This document shows positions 13,372 through 62,729 of a stretch of 64,000 nt of DNA, piece by piece. Source of the stretch: Botryosphaeria dothidea (taxonomy: Eukaryota; Ascomycota; Dothideomycetes; Botryosphaeriales; Botryosphaeriaceae); assembly GCA_011503125.2 (NCBI GenBank), contig WWBZ02000001.1:1364001-1428000 (forward strand), in the 5' to 3' direction. Positions within the stretch are counted from its first letter, which is position 1, and every line of letters starts with the position of its first letter. The notes beneath the pieces were generated by a model. It ran no database searches. It saw only the letters and a list, made by a program, of their open reading frames with translations, and was not told the origin of the DNA. The position numbers and the translations under genes were made by a program.

Positions 13372-16300
13372 ATGAGCCGATGCAGCTCGGAGCTCTATAC
13401 TAACTACAATGCTCGGCGTCGTGGCTGCGCACGAGCTTCGCAAGTATACTACAAACCCAATGTCCACGCTTCCTTCCAGAAGTTATCCTCTTGGGCTGAC
13501 TCTTGTCTTGTCGTCCATAGATACTCAGATGTCCACCAGCTTCCTCCAGCATCATCCACCTATGAACGCGCCCTGGGCCTCGACCCCTCTCTCGTCAAAA
13601 CATCGCCACTATGTGCTTCTCTCCACGCTTTCGCCGAGATCGCCAGTATCCGACTGAGTAGGTCGCTGTGCACGCAAGCCATTCCACGGTCGTTTGTCCT
13701 GACGAGCCGCTTTAGTGACCTATGGAGTCTTTATTTCGCTTACTGACGGCATCACACAACGCCTGGTTGCCGGAAGTTGGGGCACCCAGTCTGAATACGT
13801 CGCTCCGCATTGGCTTGCTATTGCAGATGCCGACAGGAAAACCTGGTTGAGGCTGGGACGCCTGTCAATCGGCATGGAAGAGCACTCTCCACTAGGTACC
13901 ACGCAGGTGCGCCTGAACGAGGATGATCGTACAGCAAACCTCTGCTGCGTCACAAGCCGTCCAAACCTAGCCTACTACGCCGCTGCTCCAATCAAAACTG
14001 ATCAAGATGTCGCGATCGGCACGGTGTTTCTTGTTGACGTTCGCGATCGCTCCCCACCGTTGCAGCAAGACATGGACCTCCTGCAGCAAACAGCGAAGAC
14101 GTGCATGGCTCAGCTGGAGTCGACACGCACTGCTCATCTGCGAGGCCGCTCCACTAGAATCAGCGAAGGTCTCAAGTCCTTCATATATTCCCGTGTGACC
14201 AATGCAACCATTGGAGAGGATCCCCGCAACCTGCGCCCCACGCCGAGCCACACGGACATACTCACAGATGTGCATCCCAATCCGGAGCTCGATGATATGC
14301 CCAAGGAAATTGTGAGCCCCGAGATGCAGCACGAGCGTCTAGAGGGGACTGGGCCTCACGGTCAGTCCCCAAGCAACTCGCAAGAAGACACAACATATCA
14401 GAAAACGTTCAGAAGTGCCGCAAAGACTCTACGAACTGCGTTGGACGTTGACGGTGTCGCCTTCATCGACGGTAATATCGGCTTTCACGGCAAGTTGAAC
14501 ACTGCGCCAGAGCCGGAACTGGAGCTGGAAGATGAGCAGCGCGCGACTTCACGCGAGGGGCAGCAACGAAAAGGCAACCTGACTCCGTCACAGGCCAGCA
14601 ATGTCTATACTCATGCATCAGACAATGACGGCAGCAGCAGCAGAACCTTTACCAGCGCTGAATACAAAGGATCTATACTCCTTCGCCGCCCAACCGAATG
14701 TCTTGGAATTTCCTTTGTCGACGATAAGCGACCAAATTGCGTCAACGTTTCCCCGACCACGCTTGGCTTAGACCACATCGACGAGGACTTTCTGCAAAAG
14801 CTCCTGGAAAAGTATCCTCGCGGGAAGATATGGTACTTCGAGGAACAAAGCAGAACGCCCTACGGCTTCTCCTGCGATGACAGGCTCACAGCTGAGGGCG
14901 AAGACAGCTATGCTCATCCGATATTATCTTCATTCCCCGGAGTACGGCAGTTACTTTTCGCACCTCTGACGGACCCAGCCTCGCTGAAACGCCTGGCAGG
15001 GTGTCTTGCATGGACGACGCGCGTCAGTCCAACGTTTACCGAAGCCACAGATCTGAATACCTTCATGAGCTTTCTTTCCTTGGTGGAGTCTGAGATTTCT
15101 AGGATCGATAGCACTGCTGCTGTTAAGCAACAAGAATCCTTTGTGTCATCCGTAAGCCACGAGCTCTGGACACCTTTACATGGTATTCTTGGCGCGGTTG
15201 AGTTTCTTGGAGATACGAAGCTCGACGATTTTCAGCAAGGCTTATCCGACTGTATTCGCTCTTGCGCCTCCACGCTGCACGAGACGCTGAGCAGTGTCCT
15301 CTCCTACGCGAAGATCAACGAGTTCGAGCAGAGATGTAATAAGCCGACACGGCGAGGAGCAAAGGAATCACCCTGGGCCTTAGAGAACAAAGACACTGTT
15401 CGTGCGCCAGAGAGAATCGAGGGGCTCCTTTGCTCGTCTAACATTGCCATGTTATGCGAAGAGGCTATCGAGGTTTCGGCTGGCGGGAATGCATATGGTA
15501 AGGTTGCAAGCGGCGCCACCAATCGCGTGAACGTTATTCTGGACATTTCCTACTGCGACCATTGGACCTTTTTGACCGAGCCTGGCGCTCTCCGCCGTGT
15601 CATGACCAATATTTTCGGGAACGCATTGAAATATACGGATCACGGCTTCATAAAAATTTCGTTGCACTTAGAGGAGCCCCAGAACGATGAAAGTCGCCAA
15701 GCAGTACCTACAAAGGGTTTTCAAATGCTCAAATTCACTGTTCAGGATTCCGGAAGAGGCATGTCCAAGCACTTCGTTCAGAGGCGTTTGTTTATGCCGT
15801 TCACCCAGGAAGATACGGTATCATCAGAGGGAGTAGGCCTAGGAATGTCAATTGTGAAAAATTTGGTTAGCTTACTCGGCGGCAAAATAGACGTCAAGAG
15901 CCAGCTGGGTTATGGTAGCACTTTCACTGTTAGCATTCCCGTTGGTGAGGAGGATGATCCGGCTCCTGCCACAGGCCCCGCTGTTGCGCTCACGGAAGCG
16001 GTTCGGGAACTGCGTCAACAGCGCCGTGCTGTCGCCATCTGCGGCTTCAACGGCTTGCTGCAACAATCTCTAACCAGCTACTTCCGGAGCTGGTTTCAGT
16101 GGAAAGTCGTGGATTCAGAGGATGATCAAAGGTCACGTTCGGAGATCATTATCGTCAACTACGCCAACGATGCTGCTACCAAGAATGCCTACGAACACTT
16201 CGATCCTAGAAGTTCTATCCTAATAAGCGTCCACCCGACTCTTTCATTAGGGCGAATTACCAAGCACGAGGCAGAATCTTCGAAGAGTCATTTGACGACG

Positions 16301-17158
16301 ACGCTGCCAGTTGGGCCGGTTAAGCTTTCCAAGCTCATCCGCGAGTGTGTTACTCGTCTCGCAATTGCGGATGAGGGATAAGGTTTTCTAGGTAACGACC
16401 CAACCTAAGTTATCGAATCTGCCACGGTTGGACGTTTGGAGAGCATGTCGCTCACACGACCGTGGAGCAACTCTACCTCGGTGGCCTCAACGCAACTAGA
16501 AGAACCCGAGTCCCTGAAAGTGCCACTTGCACCCACTGAGCCAGAACACACTCGAGAAACGTCGACTAAACGCACGCCTTGCCTACTTCTTGTGGAAGAT
16601 AATACCATCAATCTTAAGCTGCTGAAGACATTCATAGCTAAGAGGGGTTACGAAAATATCCGGACAGCGGGAAATGGACAACTCGCCGTCGACCATGTCA
16701 TGAAGTTGATGGAGGAGAGCTTAGGCTTCGACATTATTTTCATGGGTAAGTTGATCTTTCCACCAACAGAAGAACCAAAACAGAAGAATGCCATTTTTAT
16801 ACCTTTTCGTTTTGATTCCGCAATAATTACCATTTTAAACATATCTCCTCCCTCAAGGCCCATAGCTTACACATCGTCTGTAGATATTAGCATGCCCGTG
16901 ATGGACGGCTTCGCTGCAACACTCGCAATCCGTAACATTGAGCAGCAGCAACGCGAGGTGGGGCGCCTTCCAACAGTAGCATTACGCCCACCTGCGTATG
17001 TCGTAGCGCTTACAGGACTGGCAAGCGCGCAGGACGAGGAGAGAGCGTACCGAGCGGGCATGGACTTGGTGCTGACGAAGCCGGTCAAGTTTGAGAGACT
17101 GGCGAATCTCTTTGAACAATGGGAAAAGGGGGAAGAACTAAAGAGTGAAGTTAGGTAA
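13372..17158 (+). CDS. Hybrid sensor histidine kinase
   Basis: Modelled as four exons: 13372-13657, 13716-16346, 16410-16745 and 16884-17158, 1175 residues. The N-terminus looks GAF-like (ISLTDG motif restored by the first splice). The H-box is SVSHELWTPLHG with the phospho-accepting His near residue 577, the N-box is TNIFGNALKYTD near 730, and G-boxes are DSGRGMS and GVGLGMS near 773 and 801. A receiver domain starts near 1026 (LLLVEDNTINLKLL) with FMDISMPVMDG. The phospho-accepting Asp codon (about residue 1085) is itself split by the 138-bp last intron. Two in-frame TAA codons (16379 and 16406) separate kinase and receiver; they disappear only if the weaker intron 16347-16409 (GTGTTA...CTAAG) is used. 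The family phosphorelays to an HPt protein and then to Ssk1/Skn7-type regulators. The start codon is uncertain. Confidence 0.85.
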
Positions 17159-18859: not shown

Positions 18860-20354
18860 AGCTTTGGAATTTCAAGGATGGCGGCGGGAGACTCGATAAT
18901 AACGGGTAGAGCGCGCTAGGTATGTGTGCGTGCGTTGGGTATTGTGGCTGTGGCGGTGCTTGTTTGCTTGGGAAAAGGCAGGTAGGCGCGGAATTGGTGC
19001 ACAGGTAGAGATGGTGTGCAGGCCTCGGGATCCTCGGTACAATCAATTGGTCGGGTGTGGATGTGAGGGAGGGGCGATCCGCTCTGGTTTGGGATGCGGT
19101 TGGCTGGTTTGTTTGGTTGTTGAGGGTTGAGTGCTGCTTTGTGTTGCGTAGTTGCAGGGCTGTAGCTTGATGCAAGAAAAGTGCGGAGAAGGCGAAATTG
19201 ATATACAGATGTTGTGCTGGGCTGGTGATTTCATGGTCTGGTTATGGTCGGATGATGCTGCAGCTGGCGCCACCTCCGCTCCGCCCGCCTGCATTTGCCC
19301 ATACACACGCGACACCCCTCAGAAAACCCTCGAACCCCTGTCTCTGCCATCTGTCCCCCGATCTTGCGACAATCTGGCAGAGAGGCCGGCAAAGGCGCTC
19401 TCCACCGCACGAAGATGCACCGGAAGCACGCACCCGGCTCTGGCAAGCCGGGCCAACGAATGGCGCTCTGGGCTTGCTGACGCTGAGCGAGACACCCCTG
19501 GGACTTTCGTGGGTGGAGCGACACGGCCCCGCTTTCAGAGCTCGCCCCCGTATCACCAGATCGCCCGACTGATCGTGGGGTGACCGCCGGCGGCTCCCGC
19601 CACGGCTCTTGCGCAGGCCCCCGGAAGAATGTTGACCCTAGCAGAAAAGGCCCTACGCCTCAGGCTCGACCCGCTGACGTACGCATCCATCTGCTGCGTG
19701 AGCCCTGCTTTTTGTATGCGTGCGCGCGTTCGAGAAAAGTCGACACCTTTTTACCCACAACGATCCACTCGTCCGGTGGAGCGCTGCGCCTGCAACGAAA
19801 GGTCCTCAGTGTTTCATGAAGGCCCCATCCAAGGTCGGACTTTTCTCGCTGCTAGATATCCGACTTGCCTTAAACGATGCTCACAGGCCATGATCCTCTC
19901 AAAGGTGGAGCTGCCACTATACACAGGACGAGGCCTGCCTTGATTCGAGACTAATCTTCCTATGGTGGAGAGTTTGAAGAAAACGTGGTGTGCATGGCGC
20001 CTCCGGGCCGACCCGGCATGTGCGCCTCCGGCCCAGTTTATTCCACCACTTGTTGCTTGGCCAGCTATCTTCCTTAACCAGACCCTTCCAATGACGCACT
20101 TGACGGTAGATTAGCCGGCATAGGGTCGGTCGGCCGGTCCCGAAAGGATCGCTGCAATAAGAGTAACTATCTATTTACATTCATTTTCTGATGGAGGACT
20201 TCGTATGCACTGCGTCGGGTGTTGCAGTACCTTCGAGTTCAACCTCCTATCCAGAGAAAAAGTGAAAGAAATGGTGAATCTTCATTCTATGCAAGAAGCC
20301 TCTATGATCCCCTAAGCCACAATGCCCATATTCCTACAAGAACCCAAAGAAATC
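18860..20354. other. Intergenic, nothing recognised
   Basis: The promoter of the small membrane-protein gene (minus strand) should lie near 18.86-19.2 kb, and the 3' UTR of the chloride channel just left of 20.35 kb. The frames here (up to 143 codons) overlap one another on both strands and show no family signal. Confidence 0.5.
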
Positions 20355-24199: not shown

Positions 24200-26047
24200 C
24201 TAGATAAGTATCAAGGGCGTATCCTCTGTCACACCTTCCAACACCTCACCATCCATGACTCCGTCCAGAAAGCAGTCACCTACAAATCTACGAGTACTCC
24301 CGGATTGATGCTCTTGCATTGTCTTTCTAAGAACAAAAGGCACATTGGATCCAAACAGAACACACACCTCATCTCCAGCTCGAGCCTTGGCGTCGCACAG
24401 CCCCATTCTTCCATTCTGAGTGGTGTAGAAGGACCGTCCGGTAATAGCCATGGCTGCTCCCGACTCAAGGTGCCCTGGCAAGGCCGCTGCGTCCCCGTTC
24501 ATGAACTATTGCCACTCCGCCTCGGTAGGCATATCAGCTTCGCTACTACGCCTCCACCCTCGCCCAAATTCCACCCATATTCTCCAGTCCTCGGTGGCAG
24601 TAGGACATATCACCCGAGACATCGTTTTGCTCACCAGAATCTCGTCTGTCGAGCCGATGACCACCTCACACAGATTGGTCCATTGAGCGAAGATGCCTTT
24701 CAATTTTTCCACGGAATAGAGGTCTTTCACCGGTATACCGACTTCCTTGATTATGTCCGCCTGAACACCAGTCACATGGAGTTCCTTCTTGTTTTGAATC
24801 CGTAAATCACTCGTCCTTCCCCAAGAAGCTTTGAAAAGACAGTATATTTGGATTCTTCGAAGTTCTTCTCCCACTGTGTCTAACGAGAAGACTCGTGAGA
24901 AATCGCGGACCCAAGATGGAAGACCATGGAGGCTTGAGCCGAAAGCAGCGCCAAGGAGACATCGATAGTCGTGGTCAGTCTCCGATAGCATACGCCCAAA
25001 GACCTCCGTGTAGCAATCATACGCGGGGACACGGTAGTCAGGCTTGAACGTCTCGAATGCAGTGGACTTGGCCATGGCAAGAAGCGAAAAGACCCTGTCG
25101 CGCGGATCCTGACAATATCGAAAGGCAAATGTCTGTATGACCTCGTGGAAAGGGGGATCAGGGAGCGGACCGGTCCACTCGAGGTCGTAAGAATATCCTG
25201 GGTTGTGCTTTTTGAGATGCAGCAGCCGAAGTCTTTCGATGAATTCGATCTCCCAGCCAAACCGATCGAAGACCTTCCTTTGAGGAATCGGGAATGCTCT
25301 TAGACTTTCTGGGCATCCACACTGCCGTGAGTCTCCGAGATGGCGATTCCGATTTTCCCTGGCGAGATTGATCGCATCGAATGACATTCTCCAATGCCCA
25401 TACAGGGCGATTGCTGTACGCGGCAGAGCGGTTTCTTGGATGGTCCAAGATCTTGTCCACCATTTACTGCCTGCCACGAGAAGGAAGCTTTTCCAAAGGA
25501 CAAGAAAATCTTCATTCTCGTGGAAAACCCAGGCTCCCTTGTCGTTTTTGCTGAAACCTGGGAGCTCATGGTAGTGCCCGTTCTCCGCAAAGTGGCGAAG
25601 GAGGGTGAACGGGTCTTGACTGAGGCGCCTCGTGCTAGGAGGAGATCCTAGCCATAGGTATACCGTGGAGCATCCTGAGTAGATGTCACTCATCATTGCG
25701 ACTTGATGTGGCTTCTCCGAGAGATCTTCTTGGTTGATGCAGATTGCGTCAATCCACAAAATGATTACATCTTCAGGACTCCGCGGGTGGGAGAGACAGC
25801 TCAGTAAGTTCGTAGTAACTTGCAACTCCTCGCCGTTGATCTGTATGGGTCCTGTCACAGAAATATCACTCTAGACATAGGATACGCATATGTATGGTCG
25901 TCTTGTCGTATCTTCCAGGTCTTGAACTTCAAGCTCGCCACAAAGTTGTTCGCTCTCTGAACCCGGGAATAACCGCAGGATTTTACACACTTTCTTCGCT
26001 GGATCGAGAGGGAGTCTTTGATATGTGACGAGGTTGCCGTGCGACAT
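24200..26047 (-). pseudogene. HET-domain gene with two in-frame stop codons
   Basis: One continuous reading frame of 616 codons from the ATG at 26047 to the stop at 24200, interrupted by TAG at 25871-25873 and TAG at 24506-24508. Before the first TAG the protein reads RRPYICVSYV, the start of the HET signature, and the stop stands exactly where the invariant Trp of the SYxWG motif is expected. Between the stops lie clear HET-domain landmarks (IILWIDAICINQED, VYLWLGSP, WTRSWTIQETALP). After the second TAG the frame resumes with the conserved C-terminal segment seen in this family (SFYTTQNGRMGL, CVLFGSNVPFVLR, GVMDGE). HET proteins trigger cell death between genetically unlike hyphae. Single-base TGG/CAG to TAG changes would explain both stops. 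No intron can remove the first one, because only about 25 bp could be excised. It is likely a recent null allele. Confidence 0.85.
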
Positions 26048-29000: not shown

Positions 29001-29663
29001 TGCAAATAGAATCATGTCTTGATTGGGAGACGGATTCGTATCTGAAGCCCGATTTCACATCTGTCAGATCAAATTGTTTGGGACCTACACAGGGTTGGTC
29101 CGCAGCCTTAAGGGGATCGAGAAAGCTAAAGCCAGATGATCTGAACAAGAGCCACTGGGGAGTATGTTGATCACGAGTCAAACTGAACCTAGTTGCAACA
29201 TCATTACAAGATGCCTGATATGAACCGTGATGCTGGTGGCAAGATCGGTACTGGTAGAGACTGGTGGTGTCCACTCGGTGATACGATAAGCTGACGAATC
29301 CCGTCCGTCACGGCGATGAGCCTACGGAATCCAGCTTCCTAAGTTACGCTTTGTGCCATTACCTGTAACGTTTCTGATATATGAATCTCTCGCGGCCTTG
29401 TCATACTTACGAAGATCATCGCGTGATCTGATCACATTCCTTTCTTGCCACTGTCTCACCAGAAAGTCTTCAAGCTTCTACGCAGTACTTTCGGAAGTGC
29501 GTATATATATACCGCTTTTCTGAAAGCAACAATATATGCAATTGACAGCGTCTGTTTTGCATTGGAGGCTTTATCATCAGAGAGGATAACGCTTATCGGT
29601 GAGATCCAAATTCCAGCGTATCTTCGGGGCCAAATTCTGACACCACCCTAACGCAGTGCCACC
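26048..29663. other. Long stretch without a recognised gene, upstream of the IPT gene
   Basis: Two overlapping opposite-strand frames (26907-27395 plus, 162 codons; 26736-27230 minus, 164 codons) are the only sizeable ones, and neither matches a family I know. I looked specifically for a cytochrome P450 heme-binding motif, which accompanies some fungal cytokinin genes, and did not find one. The last 250 bases hold the IPT promoter. Confidence 0.5.
29502..29511 (+). promoter_or_regulatory. TATA box candidate for the IPT gene
   Basis: A perfect TATATATATA run lies about 150 bp upstream of the IPT start codon. Position and orientation fit a core promoter, but the transcription start is unknown. 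Confidence 0.5.
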
Positions 29664-30446
29664 ATGATTCCAATTATTGCTATCGTAGGACCCACAGGGG
29701 TTGGAAAAACGAAGCTGAGCATCACCATAGCCAAAGCGCTGGGTGCTGCGGAGATCATCTCCGTCGACAGTCTCCAGGTGTATCGAGAGGCGCCCATCAT
29801 GACGGCGCAAGTCTCGACCGCAGAGATGGAAGGAGTGAGGCATCATCTGATGTGCTATCTCAATGCAGCAGAGGAGCCTCGGGACTTTGTGCCACTCGCT
29901 CTGAAGGCCATTGAATCCATTCGATGCCGAGGGAATATTCCAATTCTGTGCGGCGGATCAACTTCCTTAATGCAACCGCTCCTCATTCACCCCTACTTGG
30001 CCAAATCGAAGCGCTACATCCTTGGATTGGCCTGCCCGATGTCCGTGCTCGGCCCTCTGCTGGATGCTCGTATCAGCCAGATGGTTCATGATGGCCTTCT
30101 CGACGAAGTCTGCAAGCTTCTTCGACTCGAAGCAGAGCACCACCCACAAAAGCCTTGTGGCGTATGGAACGCTATTGGATACACCGAACTCAAGCCCTGG
30201 GCTAGTGCAAGATCTGTCGATGATGCGGTCTTTGTGCTTGACCAAGGCCTGGAAGATATGAGGCAGCATACTCGACGTTATGCAGAGACGCAGATGCTAT
30301 GGATGTTATTGGAACTCTTTCCTTCTTTGGAGAGGCTCCCTATAAAGACCGAGATGTTGGTTCTACGGTCGCACTCGGAATTCGAAAGTCAGGTGGTAGC
30401 CCCGGCGCTTGAGCTGTGTAAGGAGTGGCTGAGTGATCATGCATAA
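29664..30446 (+). CDS. Isopentenyltransferase (IPT), probable cytokinin synthase
   Basis: Intronless, 260 residues. The P-loop is GPTGVGKT (residues 9-16), followed by VDSLQVYREAPIMTAQ (34-49), the IPT signature in which Asp35 would act as general base. GVRHHLM (58-64), the CGGSTS loop (96-101) and HTRRYAETQMLWM near the C-terminus also fit. The family transfers a dimethylallyl group to N6 of adenine, either on tRNA (Mod5/MiaA, usually 300-430 residues, often with a C-terminal zinc finger in eukaryotes) or on free AMP/ADP/ATP. This protein is short and lacks the zinc finger and the long swinging domain of tRNA enzymes, which favours the free-nucleotide type. The neighbouring LOG gene 365 bp downstream on the same strand strengthens that reading. 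ATG context GCCACCATGA is good. Nucleotide preference and activity are inferred, not seen. Confidence 0.88.
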   Translation: MIPIIAIVGPTGVGKTKLSITIAKALGAAEIISVDSLQVYREAPIMTAQVSTAEMEGVRHHLMCYLNAAEEPRDFVPLALKAIESIRCRGNIPILCGGSTSLMQPLLIHPYLAKSKRYILGLACPMSVLGPLLDARISQMVHDGLLDEVCKLLRLEAEHHPQKPCGVWNAIGYTELKPWASARSVDDAVFVLDQGLEDMRQHTRRYAETQMLWMLLELFPSLERLPIKTEMLVLRSHSEFESQVVAPALELCKEWLSDHA

Positions 30447-30691
30447 ATACGTATTGAGCTGCTTTCTCAAACATCATTGCTTATTGCCACAACCTTAAAG
30501 CTCTTAGACCGTATATTTAATTTCGAGAAGGATCAAGCATCTACCGATTCTCAAACTTTAGGATGAACTGTGAAGAACTAATGACTAATTGACTCGTCGC
30601 TTCATCTTTAACCTTTGGAAAGGAGCTCTACTTTTAATCTGGAGCACCGCACTCTAATTCGCGCGCGTTTGCTGAGTAAGATGAATTGATT

Positions 30692-30697
30692 TATAAA
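30692..30697 (+). promoter_or_regulatory. TATA box candidate for the LOG gene
   Basis: TATAAA lies 114 bp upstream of the LOG start, between the IPT stop and the LOG ATG. It indicates that LOG has its own promoter rather than being read through from IPT. Confidence 0.5.
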
Positions 30698-30810
30698 GCC
30701 CCCCAGTCCCCTCCTTACCGTCATCATGCTTTAGCCAGGTCACCGTGAGATTTTCTCTCACAATCACACACACACATCTTCCAACTTACTCAAGACGACT
30801 TGGCGGAGAC

Positions 30811-31470
30811 ATGACTGAACGTTTCACTATATGTGTCTTCTGCGGTAAGGGCATGGAATATTATGAATGTCAAAACCTCGAGACTCATTTCTGCTTTACA
30901 GGCTCCAGCTTTGGGCTTTCGGACGAATTTATCGAAGCAACAAGATCTCTTGCACTGGAAATACACCTGCGCGGCTGGTCACTTGTCTATGGCGGAGGAA
31001 CCAGAGGGCTAATGGGCGTGTTGGCTGAGTCTCTCGTCAAGCTCAGCGGACCAAGTTCTGTCCACGGAATCACGCCGCGTCCTTTCTTACAAACCTCGAC
31101 CGGAATTTGCACTCCAGACGAAAGTCGTTTTGGCCGAACTACTGTGGTCTCCACTATGCACGAGCGAAAGGCGCTGATGGCGAAGGAGGCTGATGCTTTC
31201 CTCGCACTACCTGGAGGCTATGGAACGATGGAGGAGCTATTTGAGATGATCACATGGAACCAGTTGGGTATCCACACTCGCCCCGTCGTGCTCCTTAACA
31301 CGAATGGTTTCTTCGATGGCCTTATTTGCTGGATCGAGAAGGCAATGAGTCAGGGGTTTATCTCAGCAGAAGCGCGCAATATAGTGGATGTTGCTGAGAC
31401 TGCGGATGAAGTGATTGAGAAGATTGAGATATATCAAAGTCCTATCGTGGCGGAACTGGAATGGTTGTAG
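30811..31470 (+). CDS. LOG-family cytokinin riboside 5'-monophosphate phosphoribohydrolase
   Basis: Two exons, 30811-30844 and 30902-31470, joined across a 57-bp intron (GTAAGG...TTACAG), give 200 residues, the usual LOG length. Splicing restores CVFCGSSFG at the N-terminus. The remaining signatures are complete: YGGGTRGLMG (41-50), MHERK (97-101) and the catalytic PGGYGTMEE (115-123) with its Arg/Glu pair. LOG enzymes hydrolyse cytokinin nucleotides to the free base and ribose 5-phosphate, the activation step after IPT. Older database labels call them lysine decarboxylases, wrongly. An upstream in-frame ATG at 30745 would add 22 unconserved residues, so 30811 was chosen. The gene converges with the sugar transporter 250 bp downstream. 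Confidence 0.92.
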   Translation: MTERFTICVFCGKGMEYYECQNLETHFCFTGSSFGLSDEFIEATRSLALEIHLRGWSLVYGGGTRGLMGVLAESLVKLSGPSSVHGITPRPFLQTSTGICTPDESRFGRTTVVSTMHERKALMAKEADAFLALPGGYGTMEELFEMITWNQLGIHTRPVVLLNTNGFFDGLICWIEKAMSQGFISAEARNIVDVAETADEVIEKIEIYQSPIVAELEWL

Positions 31471-31720: not shown

Positions 31721-33510
31721 CTACGCATCGCCCTTCCGGCTCTCTTCTACTACATGTATGCGCTCGACATTGCCTTTTCCTTCCTTCGCTGCCTCTACCA
31801 CTTTGTTCACCTCTCCCACCGTGGCATCCTTCCCATCGAATAGCATGGCCACGGCTTCCAGACTCGGACCCTTGGTCTCAATGAAGAAGAAGTACACAAC
31901 AGCAAACTCAACCAATATCCATCCGACGTAGAACCAGTAAAATTTCCAGTCAAATGCATCCAGGCCTAAAGGATTGACGTACGTGTTGAACGCACCAGCA
32001 GCTCCAGTCAACAGCCAGAACAGCGCAATGCCCTTGGCTCTGAGTGTACACGGCAGCACTTCTACCACATACACCATCATGGCTCCCGTCCATCCGAGGT
32101 TGTGGACACCGCTGTACAGGTAAATGAACGCGACTGAAGCGTACGATGCCGATTCGGAGCCCGACCAATTCTTGCCTTTCTCGACGAATACTGCGTTTTG
32201 TCAACATGACGCTGACAACCACCAAGGTGGGGTTTCACTTACAGCCCGTGCAAATAGTAATCAGCGTAAATACAACCCACATCAACGCCATGCTCCACAG
32301 TAACAACGGTCTTCGTCCCACTCGCTCCGGCAAGAAAGCAAACGCAACGCTGCAAGCCAAGCTAAACATCTGGCTCGTAGCCGTGATAAGAGTCTGTTGG
32401 AGCTCCGTCGTAACACCAGCCGAGGTCAGCATGGAGTGCAGATAGTAGCTCACTAAACCGTTACCTGACCACTGCTTGCAGATGCCGCACCAGATCATGA
32501 TGAAGCTGCGCCACCGGTTGCCCGGTGTACGCCACAGCTCACTCCAACGGGTCTGCTTTGCCGCGATTTCCATTTCGATAGTTGAGCATATCTCATTGTA
32601 TTCGTATTGCACCACGGGGTCCTCGCGGTCGCCGTTGGCGTGATAGTGGGCAAGGATCTCGAGCGCTTTTTCGTTTCGGCCTTTGCTGACAAGCCATCTG
32701 GGCGATTCAGGAAGGAACAAGATCCCAACCGCCTGAAAGACGGACGGCAATGCCTGGAAAACGGACGGAATGCGCCATGACCTCGGAGATGTCAGCGGGA
32801 ATTCCGAGCAGCTCAAAGATTTCTTACCAAGTGCTGCTCATCCGAAAGCTCCCGAAGGTTATCCACGCCGCGACAATGGCGCCAGTGCTGTACTGCGTGT
32901 TTGACATGGCTGTGGCTGTAGCACGGTGGCTGGGGTACGCCAGCTCGGCCATGAGCACTGGGCCGATGGCTCCGACAATAACACCTCCAATTCCAAGTAG
33001 AAGCCGGCCAGCAATGAACATGCCGGCTGCTCTCTATTAGTCTTGATTCATGCATGGCTCTTGGACCACTTACCATTCACCGCGCCAGTAACGAGGGCGG
33101 TGCCGAGAATGCAAATTGTGGACCCAAGAAACATGGCTGTGCGTCTGCCCCATCCATCGGAGAAAGCGGTGATGAAGAACACTCCGAGGATGTTGCCAAT
33201 CCAGTAAGATGCACTGAGAATCCCCAAGAGACTGCCCTTTGGATGATGGAATTCTGCAAGATTGATTTTGAGTCAGTTCCTCATGATTCGGGGGTGAAAG
33301 CTCACCATTCTGCCATGTCTTAAGCTGCTGTACATTATTGATCAAACTTGCATCATATCCTTGGACATATTCGGACATCAACGGTATGAAGAGAAGCAAG
33401 TTGAGCTTCAGCAGTCCGCGGTCCCTCCACCAGTGGCCTGTTTTGTTATCGAGAGGAGTCGTGGCGGCCAAAGCCTGCCTGTCGGACTGTGCATTCTTGT
33501 GAGCATGCAT
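31721..33510 (-). CDS. MFS sugar transporter (lactose/hexose permease-like)
   Basis: Five exons: 33510-33306, 33253-33074, 33026-32828, 32781-32243 and 32190-31721, 530 residues, with introns of 46-52 bp and all phases consistent. Sugar-porter hallmarks are SDGWGRR after TM2, GRLLLGIGG, PESPRWLVSKGR before the central loop, PERVGRRPLLLW after TM8, and FFIETKGPSLEAV after TM12. A cytosolic N-terminus (HKNAQSDRQAL) precedes GYDASLINNVQ in TM1, the form common in fungal lactose/cellobiose-type permeases. It should import a mono- or disaccharide by proton symport. The divergent BNR_4 gene shares its 560-bp promoter region, so co-regulation is plausible. The substrate cannot be read from the sequence. 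Confidence 0.93.
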
Positions 33511-61028: not shown

Positions 61029-62729
61029 TCATCGGTAAGACTCACGAGAATCTTGTAGATAAATCCTCGCCTTCAAGTTTCTTTTCGTCTCCGAACCCAT
61101 CGGGTATCTTACTGACAAAATAGCATTTCGTTTCGTCAGTGGCAAGTAAGCCCTGGTCCAATCCGCCCCGTCTCCGCTCTCAAGTTCGGATAGGCGTGGA
61201 AGCTGGGAACTAAGCAATTCCTCGGGACTCTGCATACCGGCTCCGATCGACTGTTGCAAATCACACGAAGGCGACGTTCCACCGAAGTAGAGAAATGCCA
61301 CAAGGACTTCCTCCGTGGACTTGTTGCGGAACCGGATCCAGAAAGAAGGAGCTGTGGCAAGATATTCAAGCACGAAAGGCTTTGAATTCGGGACCGGGGG
61401 CATTCCACGTCCAAGATCTGTGTCGACAACGACGAAGCCCTCGAAGATGCTATGGTCGACTTGAATGATCCATTGTGGCTGGACGTTTCGATGACTCACG
61501 CGACGGCGACGCAAGCTGGGGACGAGAGACCAGCGTTGTGAAGAAAACGTCGCGTCGATAAACAGCTCCTGGATCTTGGCCGAACGCGGTCTCTCGCTCC
61601 ACGCACTTCGTGTGTTCCTCAATTCTTCCGTGATTATCCTCCTGTATTGCTTCGAGTTGGAAGCCGTGGTGACCGGTTCCAGGTATATGGTGAAGGGCTC
61701 GTCGGAAGCATTCGGATCGGGATTGCGGATACGGCACGCCAAACTTGCGCGAAGGACCTCATGATCGCCAATATTCAATCCGGACTGCACTGGTAGCCAA
61801 ATTCGCAACCCCAGATTTGTCAGCTCGTAGTGCTCCTTATTGTCGATATTCTCCCTTGAAATTGTTCCGAGGTTGACAGTCTCGATGCTTGAGCCATTCA
61901 AGAACAATCTGGGGTCCCTCGCGAGGATTCCGCAGGTGAGTGCGTGGCGTGAGCTACGTAGCGGGTCATCCCAGGCAAAGATGCTATGATCCGTCGACGT
62001 TTTGATGATCTCCAGCTGGAGTCTCGTGAACGCACCTTCCCCCTCACCGTAGATGATGGGCATGTTAACGCTGAATATCCCCATCAACGAGTACGCCCTG
62101 TCTTCTATTCTGGTGGTGTTTCGCTTTGCAGCCCAAGACATCCTTGTCGAGATATTGGCGCCGTCCATCTTCACAGGGTCCCAAAGGATATAGCGGTCGA
62201 TATTTGTGATTTGCTCCAAGGTCACCGCCAGGCTCTTCCTGCTTCCAAACTCGGCCCAGTCCTTGGAGAAGAAGATGACGTTCTTCGGAGCAATCAGTTC
62301 CTGCAATGTCCAACCGCGCTTGAACCATTCGCTCCCCCTGAATTCGGAGTTTGCTGCCTCGGGATCACTCTCTGCCGTGCTCACGTCTTGCAAGTAAGCA
62401 AAACAAACGCCAGAGCTCCGGTAGTAGCGATACATGGAATTGATTGCCTCTGAAAGCTCTGCGCTGCTGGACCTGTCGATGCAGCATGTGTCAGTCCATA
62501 CGTAGGACAAGTCTTCCTTCAGCGCCTGTGCGCAACATCCTTCCACCTTGGCATAGTCCTTCTTCGCTTCTGCAGTGCCGTTCATAAAATCCCTGAAGGT
62601 GACCTCCTCACCAGCCGAGCCCCAGCGGTGAGAGAGTATGGCGTACGGCGGTACATCGGGCTCGTTGTGTTCCTCGAGACCGACGGCGATGTTGCCCTCA
62701 GGGCCGCGATGGCAATGGAGGAGACGCAT
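61029..62729 (-). CDS. HET-domain protein, intact
   Basis: Intronless, 566 residues. HET-domain signature blocks are complete: PPYAILSHRWG (27-37), YVWTDTCCIDR, SSGVCFAYLQDV and EWFKRGWTLQELIAP, then the conserved RIEDRAYSLMGIFSVNMPIIYGEGE-type segment (its core RAYSLMGIF is seen). The C-terminal half (about 300-566) matches no motif I know; no NACHT, WD40 or ankyrin repeat follows. Proteins of this type drive heterokaryon incompatibility and cell death and are often polymorphic between strains. The domain is the HET-D/E-like kind and differs clearly from the decayed gene at 24.2-26.0 kb, so the two are not recent duplicates. Confidence 0.93.
   Translation of the reverse strand: MRLLHCHRGPEGNIAVGLEEHNEPDVPPYAILSHRWGSAGEEVTFRDFMNGTAEAKKDYAKVEGCCAQALKEDLSYVWTDTCCIDRSSSAELSEAINSMYRYYRSSGVCFAYLQDVSTAESDPEAANSEFRGSEWFKRGWTLQELIAPKNVIFFSKDWAEFGSRKSLAVTLEQITNIDRYILWDPVKMDGANISTRMSWAAKRNTTRIEDRAYSLMGIFSVNMPIIYGEGEGAFTRLQLEIIKTSTDHSIFAWDDPLRSSRHALTCGILARDPRLFLNGSSIETVNLGTISRENIDNKEHYELTNLGLRIWLPVQSGLNIGDHEVLRASLACRIRNPDPNASDEPFTIYLEPVTTASNSKQYRRIITEELRNTRSAWSERPRSAKIQELFIDATFSSQRWSLVPSLRRRRVSHRNVQPQWIIQVDHSIFEGFVVVDTDLGRGMPPVPNSKPFVLEYLATAPSFWIRFRNKSTEEVLVAFLYFGGTSPSCDLQQSIGAGMQSPEELLSSQLPRLSELESGDGADWTRAYLPLTKRNAILSVRYPMGSETKRNLKARIYLQDSRESYR

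Follow-up and report, generated by a model that had tools for sequence, protein, structure and literature searches.

A probable two-gene cytokinin module in Botryosphaeria dothidea and its place beside the fungal IPT-LOG fusions

We think it likely that two neighbouring genes of the ascomycete Botryosphaeria dothidea, one for an adenylate-type isopentenyltransferase (IPT) and one for a LOG phosphoribohydrolase, form a two-gene module for de novo cytokinin synthesis, and that the lineage of short fungal IPTs to which the first gene belongs was coupled to LOG twice, which is the best reading of the phylogenies. Both genes lie in a window of 64,000 nucleotides, the whole stretch analyzed here (assembly GCA_011503125.2, contig WWBZ02000001.1, which we call C1; C1:1364001-1428000), and positions below are counted from its first letter unless a contig is named. 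Established for this model are the intact genes, the fold and catalytic motifs of the enzymes, the loss of the tRNA-binding parts, the complement of related genes in the genome and, for at least one further fungus, the same adjacency.

In the model, the window IPT would move a dimethylallyl group from dimethylallyl diphosphate (DMAPP) to N6 of a free adenine nucleotide, most likely adenosine monophosphate (AMP), giving isopentenyladenosine monophosphate, and the adjacent LOG would then cleave off ribose 5-phosphate, freeing isopentenyladenine (iP), the likely product of the pair. These substrates, this product and the coupling of the two enzymes are what their families suggest, and we infer a role in interaction with plants. 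One of the two couplings would be a gene pair with a LOG subfamily of its own, as at this locus; the other would be the IPT-LOG fusion, whose LOG would be a housekeeping-type one.

Two genes and their enzymes

The IPT gene (29664..30446, forward strand) is a single exon for 260 amino acids, recognized by its open reading frame (ORF), by PF01715 (104.2 bits) and by its fold, with a start codon in the context CCACC-ATG. A sequence-only reading made earlier of this DNA had described a 260-residue IPT with a complete P-loop and DSLQVYR signature, and that is what is there (the P-loop reads GPTGVGKT). The AlphaFold2 model has a mean predicted local distance difference test score (pLDDT) of 95.1, and alignment and predicted fold together place the IPT core fold, the P-loop and the catalytic D, Q and Y all in this protein. 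Core fold and catalytic motifs are shared with the tRNA enzymes Mod5 and MiaA, but the zinc finger is absent at the C-terminus and the tRNA-binding insertion has shrunk to 11 residues, against some 70-120 in the Mod5/MiaA rows; the deletion is common to the clade of short fungal IPTs (11-12 residues in 73 of 73 rows). The fold also matches that of the adenylate isopentenyltransferase of hop (PDB 3a8t) over 249 residues at 2.0 A; the two proteins are 27% identical and have the P-loop and core motif in common.

The loss of insertion and zinc finger speaks against reading the window gene as a truncated second tRNA isopentenyltransferase (a Mod5 paralogue) with a LOG gene next to it by coincidence, and so does its score of 132.3 bits on TIGR00174 (tRNA isopentenyltransferase), below the cut-off of 148.65, even though its best solved-structure matches include tRNA enzymes and its S36, to which we return below, is as in those enzymes. 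A tree puts the short fungal IPTs next to three of the four Mod5-type rows (95/84, on long branches), as a paralogue would have it, but the related Claviceps fusion is reported to carry out both the IPT and the LOG reaction on free nucleotide (PMC7913349), and the genome has a Mod5-type gene elsewhere. A PF01715 search of all 51.7 Mb (78 contigs) found two IPT genes: besides the window gene there is one at C58:3448207-3449067, which matches the full profile, carries a C-terminal zinc-finger sequence by eye and has its P-loop exon directly 5' of a short intron (read from the DNA by eye; a scripted motif search missed this exon). The concern of the sequence-only reading that its IPT might be the only tRNA-IPT of the genome is met by this separate gene, and we regard the paralogue explanation as very improbable.

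The LOG gene follows on the same strand (30811..31470) in two exons, running from ATG 30811 and encoding 200 amino acids once spliced. Removal of its intron (30845..30901; 57 bp, phase 1, GTAAGG...TTTACAG) joins CVFCG to SSFG and restores CVFCGSS, the usual start of a LOG protein; a 241-residue ORF from GTG 30745 is not the gene. Three database records (P0121, P0129 and P0136) have additional residues at the intron site, as expected from an old intron that gene callers read through. Both LOG motifs, GGGTRGLMG and PGGYGTMEE, are present, and the spliced protein matches structure 5ajt (E 1.7e-47). The unspliced 241-residue ORF scores 131.1 bits on PF03641 (cut-off 27) and 169.9 on TIGR00730 (cut-off 96.35), and 112.4 on NF058542, the CtkRMPhLog equivalog, below the cut-off of 300; because this last model is narrow and its cut-off was missed, we claim membership only of the broader TIGR00730/PF03641 family.

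Between the genes lie 364 bp (30447..30810), not the 365 given in the earlier reading, which had the strand and motifs of the downstream LOG right and overlooked the intron. With the IPT stop at 30446 and a LOG start of its own at 30811, the two domains are not in one protein, so that the two cytokinin steps do sit in two separate genes, as had been proposed. A TATA candidate had also been claimed for each gene. The strings exist: TATATATATA at 29502..29511 (forward strand, upstream of the IPT start), in a stretch with three overlapping TATAWA, and TATAAA at 30692-30697, the one TATAWA 5' of LOG. At least one TATAWA also appears in 15% of shuffles of the first stretch and 30% of the second, not beyond chance, and since such strings are common in shuffles of both upstream stretches, we count them as weak evidence.

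A whole-genome search with PF03641 likewise found two LOG genes, the window LOG and one at C1:818962-819438, 45% identical to it. The window pair thus comes on top of a tRNA-type IPT, the separate Mod5-type gene, and of this second LOG. Are the two window genes perhaps chance neighbours, with no functional link? They are separate, and each has its own upstream region, but with just two IPT and two LOG genes found in 51.7 Mb, a same-strand pair 364 bp apart is very unlikely to be accidental, and the same arrangement is seen again in Pyricularia and, probably, in other fungi; we find chance scarcely credible.

Descent of the IPT and LOG domains

A protein search with the window IPT (best 120 of 552 matches) returned 11 fungal-type relatives, 40-96% identical, followed by MiaA-type records from 108 bits down. 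One of the relatives, P0004 (FH972_022600; 2.2-Mb contig), is recorded from a tree, Carpinus fangiana, but has the look of fungal DNA contaminating that assembly. A profile built from the fungal-type relatives gave 7410 matches among 7999 scored, of which the best 120 are listed. Among the matches listed, it adds standalone IPTs from Colletotrichum salicis, Alternaria tenuissima, A. alternata, Stemphylium lycopersici, Pyrenochaeta, Venturia effusa, V. nashicola, Cadophora and a Penicillium, and at least 44 IPT records also have a LOG domain (Fusarium, Claviceps, Clonostachys, Dactylonectria, Ilyonectria, Microdochium and Ustilaginoidea). In the records used, standalone IPTs score 251-413 bits and fused ones 199-290; among the matches listed, bacterial-type records reach at most 178 bits and two Mod5-type proteins 193-202. 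The taxonomy of five carriers places them in Dothideomycetes, Sordariomycetes and Leotiomycetes. Two short IPTs, P0296 (282 residues) and P0298 (314 residues), one of them from a Penicillium, also have a precomputed match to PF00491, which we take to be arginase; this is either an annotation error or an odd fusion.

The IPT tree has 86 rows and a bacterial root and includes 29 fusions of 464-503 residues; two standalone-looking records that a quick tree placed inside the fusions were left out. It unites the short fungal IPTs in one clade (100/100), within which clade A holds 31 standalone rows, the window IPT among them (100/96), and clade B holds the 29 fusions and 11 standalone rows (99/83). 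The fusions, without exception, make up a single clade (100/96) nested in clade B, with the window IPT outside, and the approximately unbiased (AU) test rejects monophyly of the standalone IPTs (p 0.015), a group that was named after a first tree. Because the fusions are nested within standalone IPTs, the unfused state is ancestral, and fusion happened once among these rows. The sequence-only reading had offered the pair as either the unfused ancestor or an independent assembly, and the first half of this stands in part: unfused is older for IPT, but on this tree the fusion did not arise from the branch of the window gene, a sister branch, and the window gene itself is not the ancestor. At the column of window residue R204, Arg is also found in 10 of 11 bacterial MiaA sequences but Leu in 22 of the 29 fusions, a change that possibly marks a difference in donor binding.

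The LOG tree (84 rows, including the LOG domains of 22 fusions) gathers all 22 fusion domains in one clade (100/100), which groups with seven housekeeping-type LOGs, the second LOG of this genome among them (100/94). A separate clade of 20 rows (100/98) takes in the window LOG, the other four co-located LOGs and 15 close relatives. The spacing from HxRK to GGYGT divides the same groups. All 22 fusion LOGs have 24 residues there and a serine before GG, and all 20 pair-type LOGs have 18 and a proline; of 30 other sampled LOGs, 18 have the longer spacing and 12 the shorter, and the shorter one recurs in all 12 of the remaining top matches. Put as a 6-residue insertion, this is present in every fusion LOG, in 18 of the 30 sampled others and in none of the pair-type LOGs. 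Read most simply, a housekeeping-type gene supplied the LOG of the fusion, and the pair uses another LOG lineage; in other words, LOG was probably recruited separately for each. Tree and insertion thus lean towards the independent assembly that the earlier reading had considered, although forcing pair-type and fusion LOGs together, at a cost of 22 log-likelihood units, stops short of rejection at 0.05 (p-AU 0.067), so that the tree by itself does not decide the matter.

That borderline value is one of the things that might tempt us to a more direct history, in which a single adjacent pair of the window kind merged and so supplied both domains of the fusion. The gene order and strand of the pair match the domain order of the fusions, and the IPT tree, with its nesting and its AU result on the standalone genes, has fusions coming out of unfused genes. 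This history has to explain, however, why the fusion LOGs group with housekeeping-type LOGs, why an insertion found in all of them is missing from all pair-type LOGs and why the window IPT sits in the other main IPT branch, and we judge it quite unlikely.

The pair in other fungi, its surroundings and the points against

In Pyricularia pennisetigena, a LOG and an IPT have consecutive locus tags (PpBr36_10099 and PpBr36_10100), so that the other doubt raised in the sequence-only reading, that the two genes might not be neighbours in relatives, fails in at least one of them. Three more cases, in which co-location is inferred from equal size of the longest contig, point the same way: P0007 (IPT) and P0142 (LOG), at 7561 bp; P0001 (IPT) and P0121 (LOG), at 87122 bp, which over aligned columns are 96% and 99% identical to the window IPT and LOG; and the Pyrenochaeta IPT P0250 and LOG P0130, at 598373 bp. 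For close neighbourhood it is the Pyricularia case and the 7.6-kb contig that speak. In the LOG search (best 120 of 6154 matches), the pair-type matches P0122-P0126, P0128 and P0129 (Colletotrichum, Neonectria, Pyricularia and Fusarium) lack an IPT partner among the matches listed, and Fusarium beomiforme has a pair-type LOG plus an IPT-LOG fusion (P0291).

The absence of a cytochrome P450 (P450) near the pair, which the earlier reading had noted over a short distance, holds over more of the window. Besides IPT and LOG, 20 of the 51 window ORFs of at least 170 residues were scanned with Pfam, and none of the 20 is a P450; a six-frame heme-motif scan of the window gave a single match, at 19326 on the minus strand, in a frame that by eye is no P450. 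The genome carries dozens of P450s, and among the 92 of 450 candidates that were scored, the nearest on the contig of the window is about 477 kb off. Among the same 92, equal scores link five pairs of matches between C36 and C78, offset by an almost constant 885.7 kb or so, and one pair each between C36 and C69 and between C3 and C12; these paired matches imply large duplicated or redundantly assembled segments, and 51.7 Mb may therefore overstate the genome size.

What else lies in the window? Some 12.5 kb 5' of IPT, on the forward strand, are a histidine kinase ORF (HisKA, HATPase_c) and then a receiver-domain ORF (13715-17158), and two ORFs with a HET (heterokaryon incompatibility) domain lie on the minus strand (24509-25858 and 61032-62729). 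Tail-to-tail with LOG is a sugar-transporter exon of the major facilitator superfamily (32238-32816, minus strand), probably part of a gene at 31721-33510, since the ORFs that flank it resemble further exons by eye. All these were recognized with Pfam, as were a chloride channel, a subtilase and flavin-dependent monooxygenases.

Several observations weigh against our reading of the locus, and we set them out together. The first concerns the acceptor: S36 of the window IPT, placed by motif rather than by superposition (it corresponds, by motif, to Lys63 of the hop enzyme), agrees with the tRNA-IPTs. In bacterial and plant adenylate IPTs, an Arg or Lys at the equivalent position is reported to bind AMP or adenosine triphosphate (ATP) (PMC8234997), and because S36 is unlike these, our assignment of the acceptor is tentative. 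The second is that the AU test leaves a common LOG origin for pairs and fusions unrejected, and the third that an unlinked P450 could still act on the product, making trans-zeatin. Last, co-location with LOG is indicated for 4 of 43 standalone IPT records, these four being the ones in which it could be judged, and pair-type LOGs are found with no IPT partner among the matches listed in Colletotrichum zoysiae, C. orchidophilum, Neonectria and several Fusarium; some pair-type LOGs may work without a short IPT.

Fungal cytokinin synthesis with and without a fusion

Fungal fusions have been described in Claviceps and Fusarium, where they are clustered with a P450 (PMC7913349), and the other route described for fungal cytokinin is the tRNA route (PMC4765853, PMC5521058); Leptosphaeria maculans is reported to have one IPT, of the tRNA type (PMC5521058). 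For the Claviceps fusion, DMAPP is the preferred donor, and adenosine diphosphate (ADP) and ATP are unused (PMC7913349). CpIPT-LOG of Claviceps purpurea and FCK1 of Fusarium pseudograminearum share with the window IPT the fungal IPT clade and the deletion at the insertion, and their two reactions come in the same order as in the window pair, but each is one fused, P450-clustered protein (PMC7913349), whereas the window pair is unfused, its LOG subfamily is without the 6-residue insertion and no P450 was found. For clusters of ipt and LOG genes, the bacterial comparison is Agrobacterium (Tmr/Tzs) and Rhodococcus fascians, whose fasD and fasF are, like the window pair, separate IPT and LOG genes, there in a single operon (PMC8234997). 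In the titles and abstract openings that a literature search covered, an unfused IPT and LOG gene pair of a fungus is not described; an earlier description may exist.

Must a prenylated adenine be meant for a plant? It might instead serve the fungus itself, for example in sporulation, or be an intermediate of some other metabolite, with no mimicry of a plant hormone. The named genera of carriers are largely plant-associated, which argues against this, though a Penicillium also has a standalone IPT. The window yielded no P450, and a six-frame search of the genome found neither a CHASE domain nor a cytokinin-dehydrogenase domain, both in keeping with fungal use. A Claviceps mutant in the P450 is reported to sporulate more (PMC7913349), but the fusion clusters of Claviceps and Fusarium do make cytokinins (PMC7913349, PMC6606975). 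We take either of these roles to be unlikely, if the most serious of the alternatives considered here.

For the larger history, in which the short adenylate IPT of fungi would go back to a single loss of the insertion in a Mod5/MiaA-like enzyme and would later have been coupled to LOG twice, as a P450-free pair ending in iP and as a P450-linked fusion, with the pair in Dothideomycetes and Sordariomycetes and the fusion mostly in Hypocreales (class and order names of carriers being partly general knowledge), we would put the chances slightly above even. If it is true, fungi would have a second architecture for cytokinin synthesis, the pair, whose end product would be iP, and a recurring unfused pair would account for the making of iP where neither a fusion nor a linked P450 is present. 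Should the pair recur, Dothideomycetes such as Alternaria, Stemphylium, Venturia and B. dothidea would join the candidates for de novo synthesis, and the pair and the fusion would be a clear case of two enzyme steps linked twice. In plant-associated fungi, the pair allows a test of how cytokinin divides between the tRNA-derived and the de novo source.
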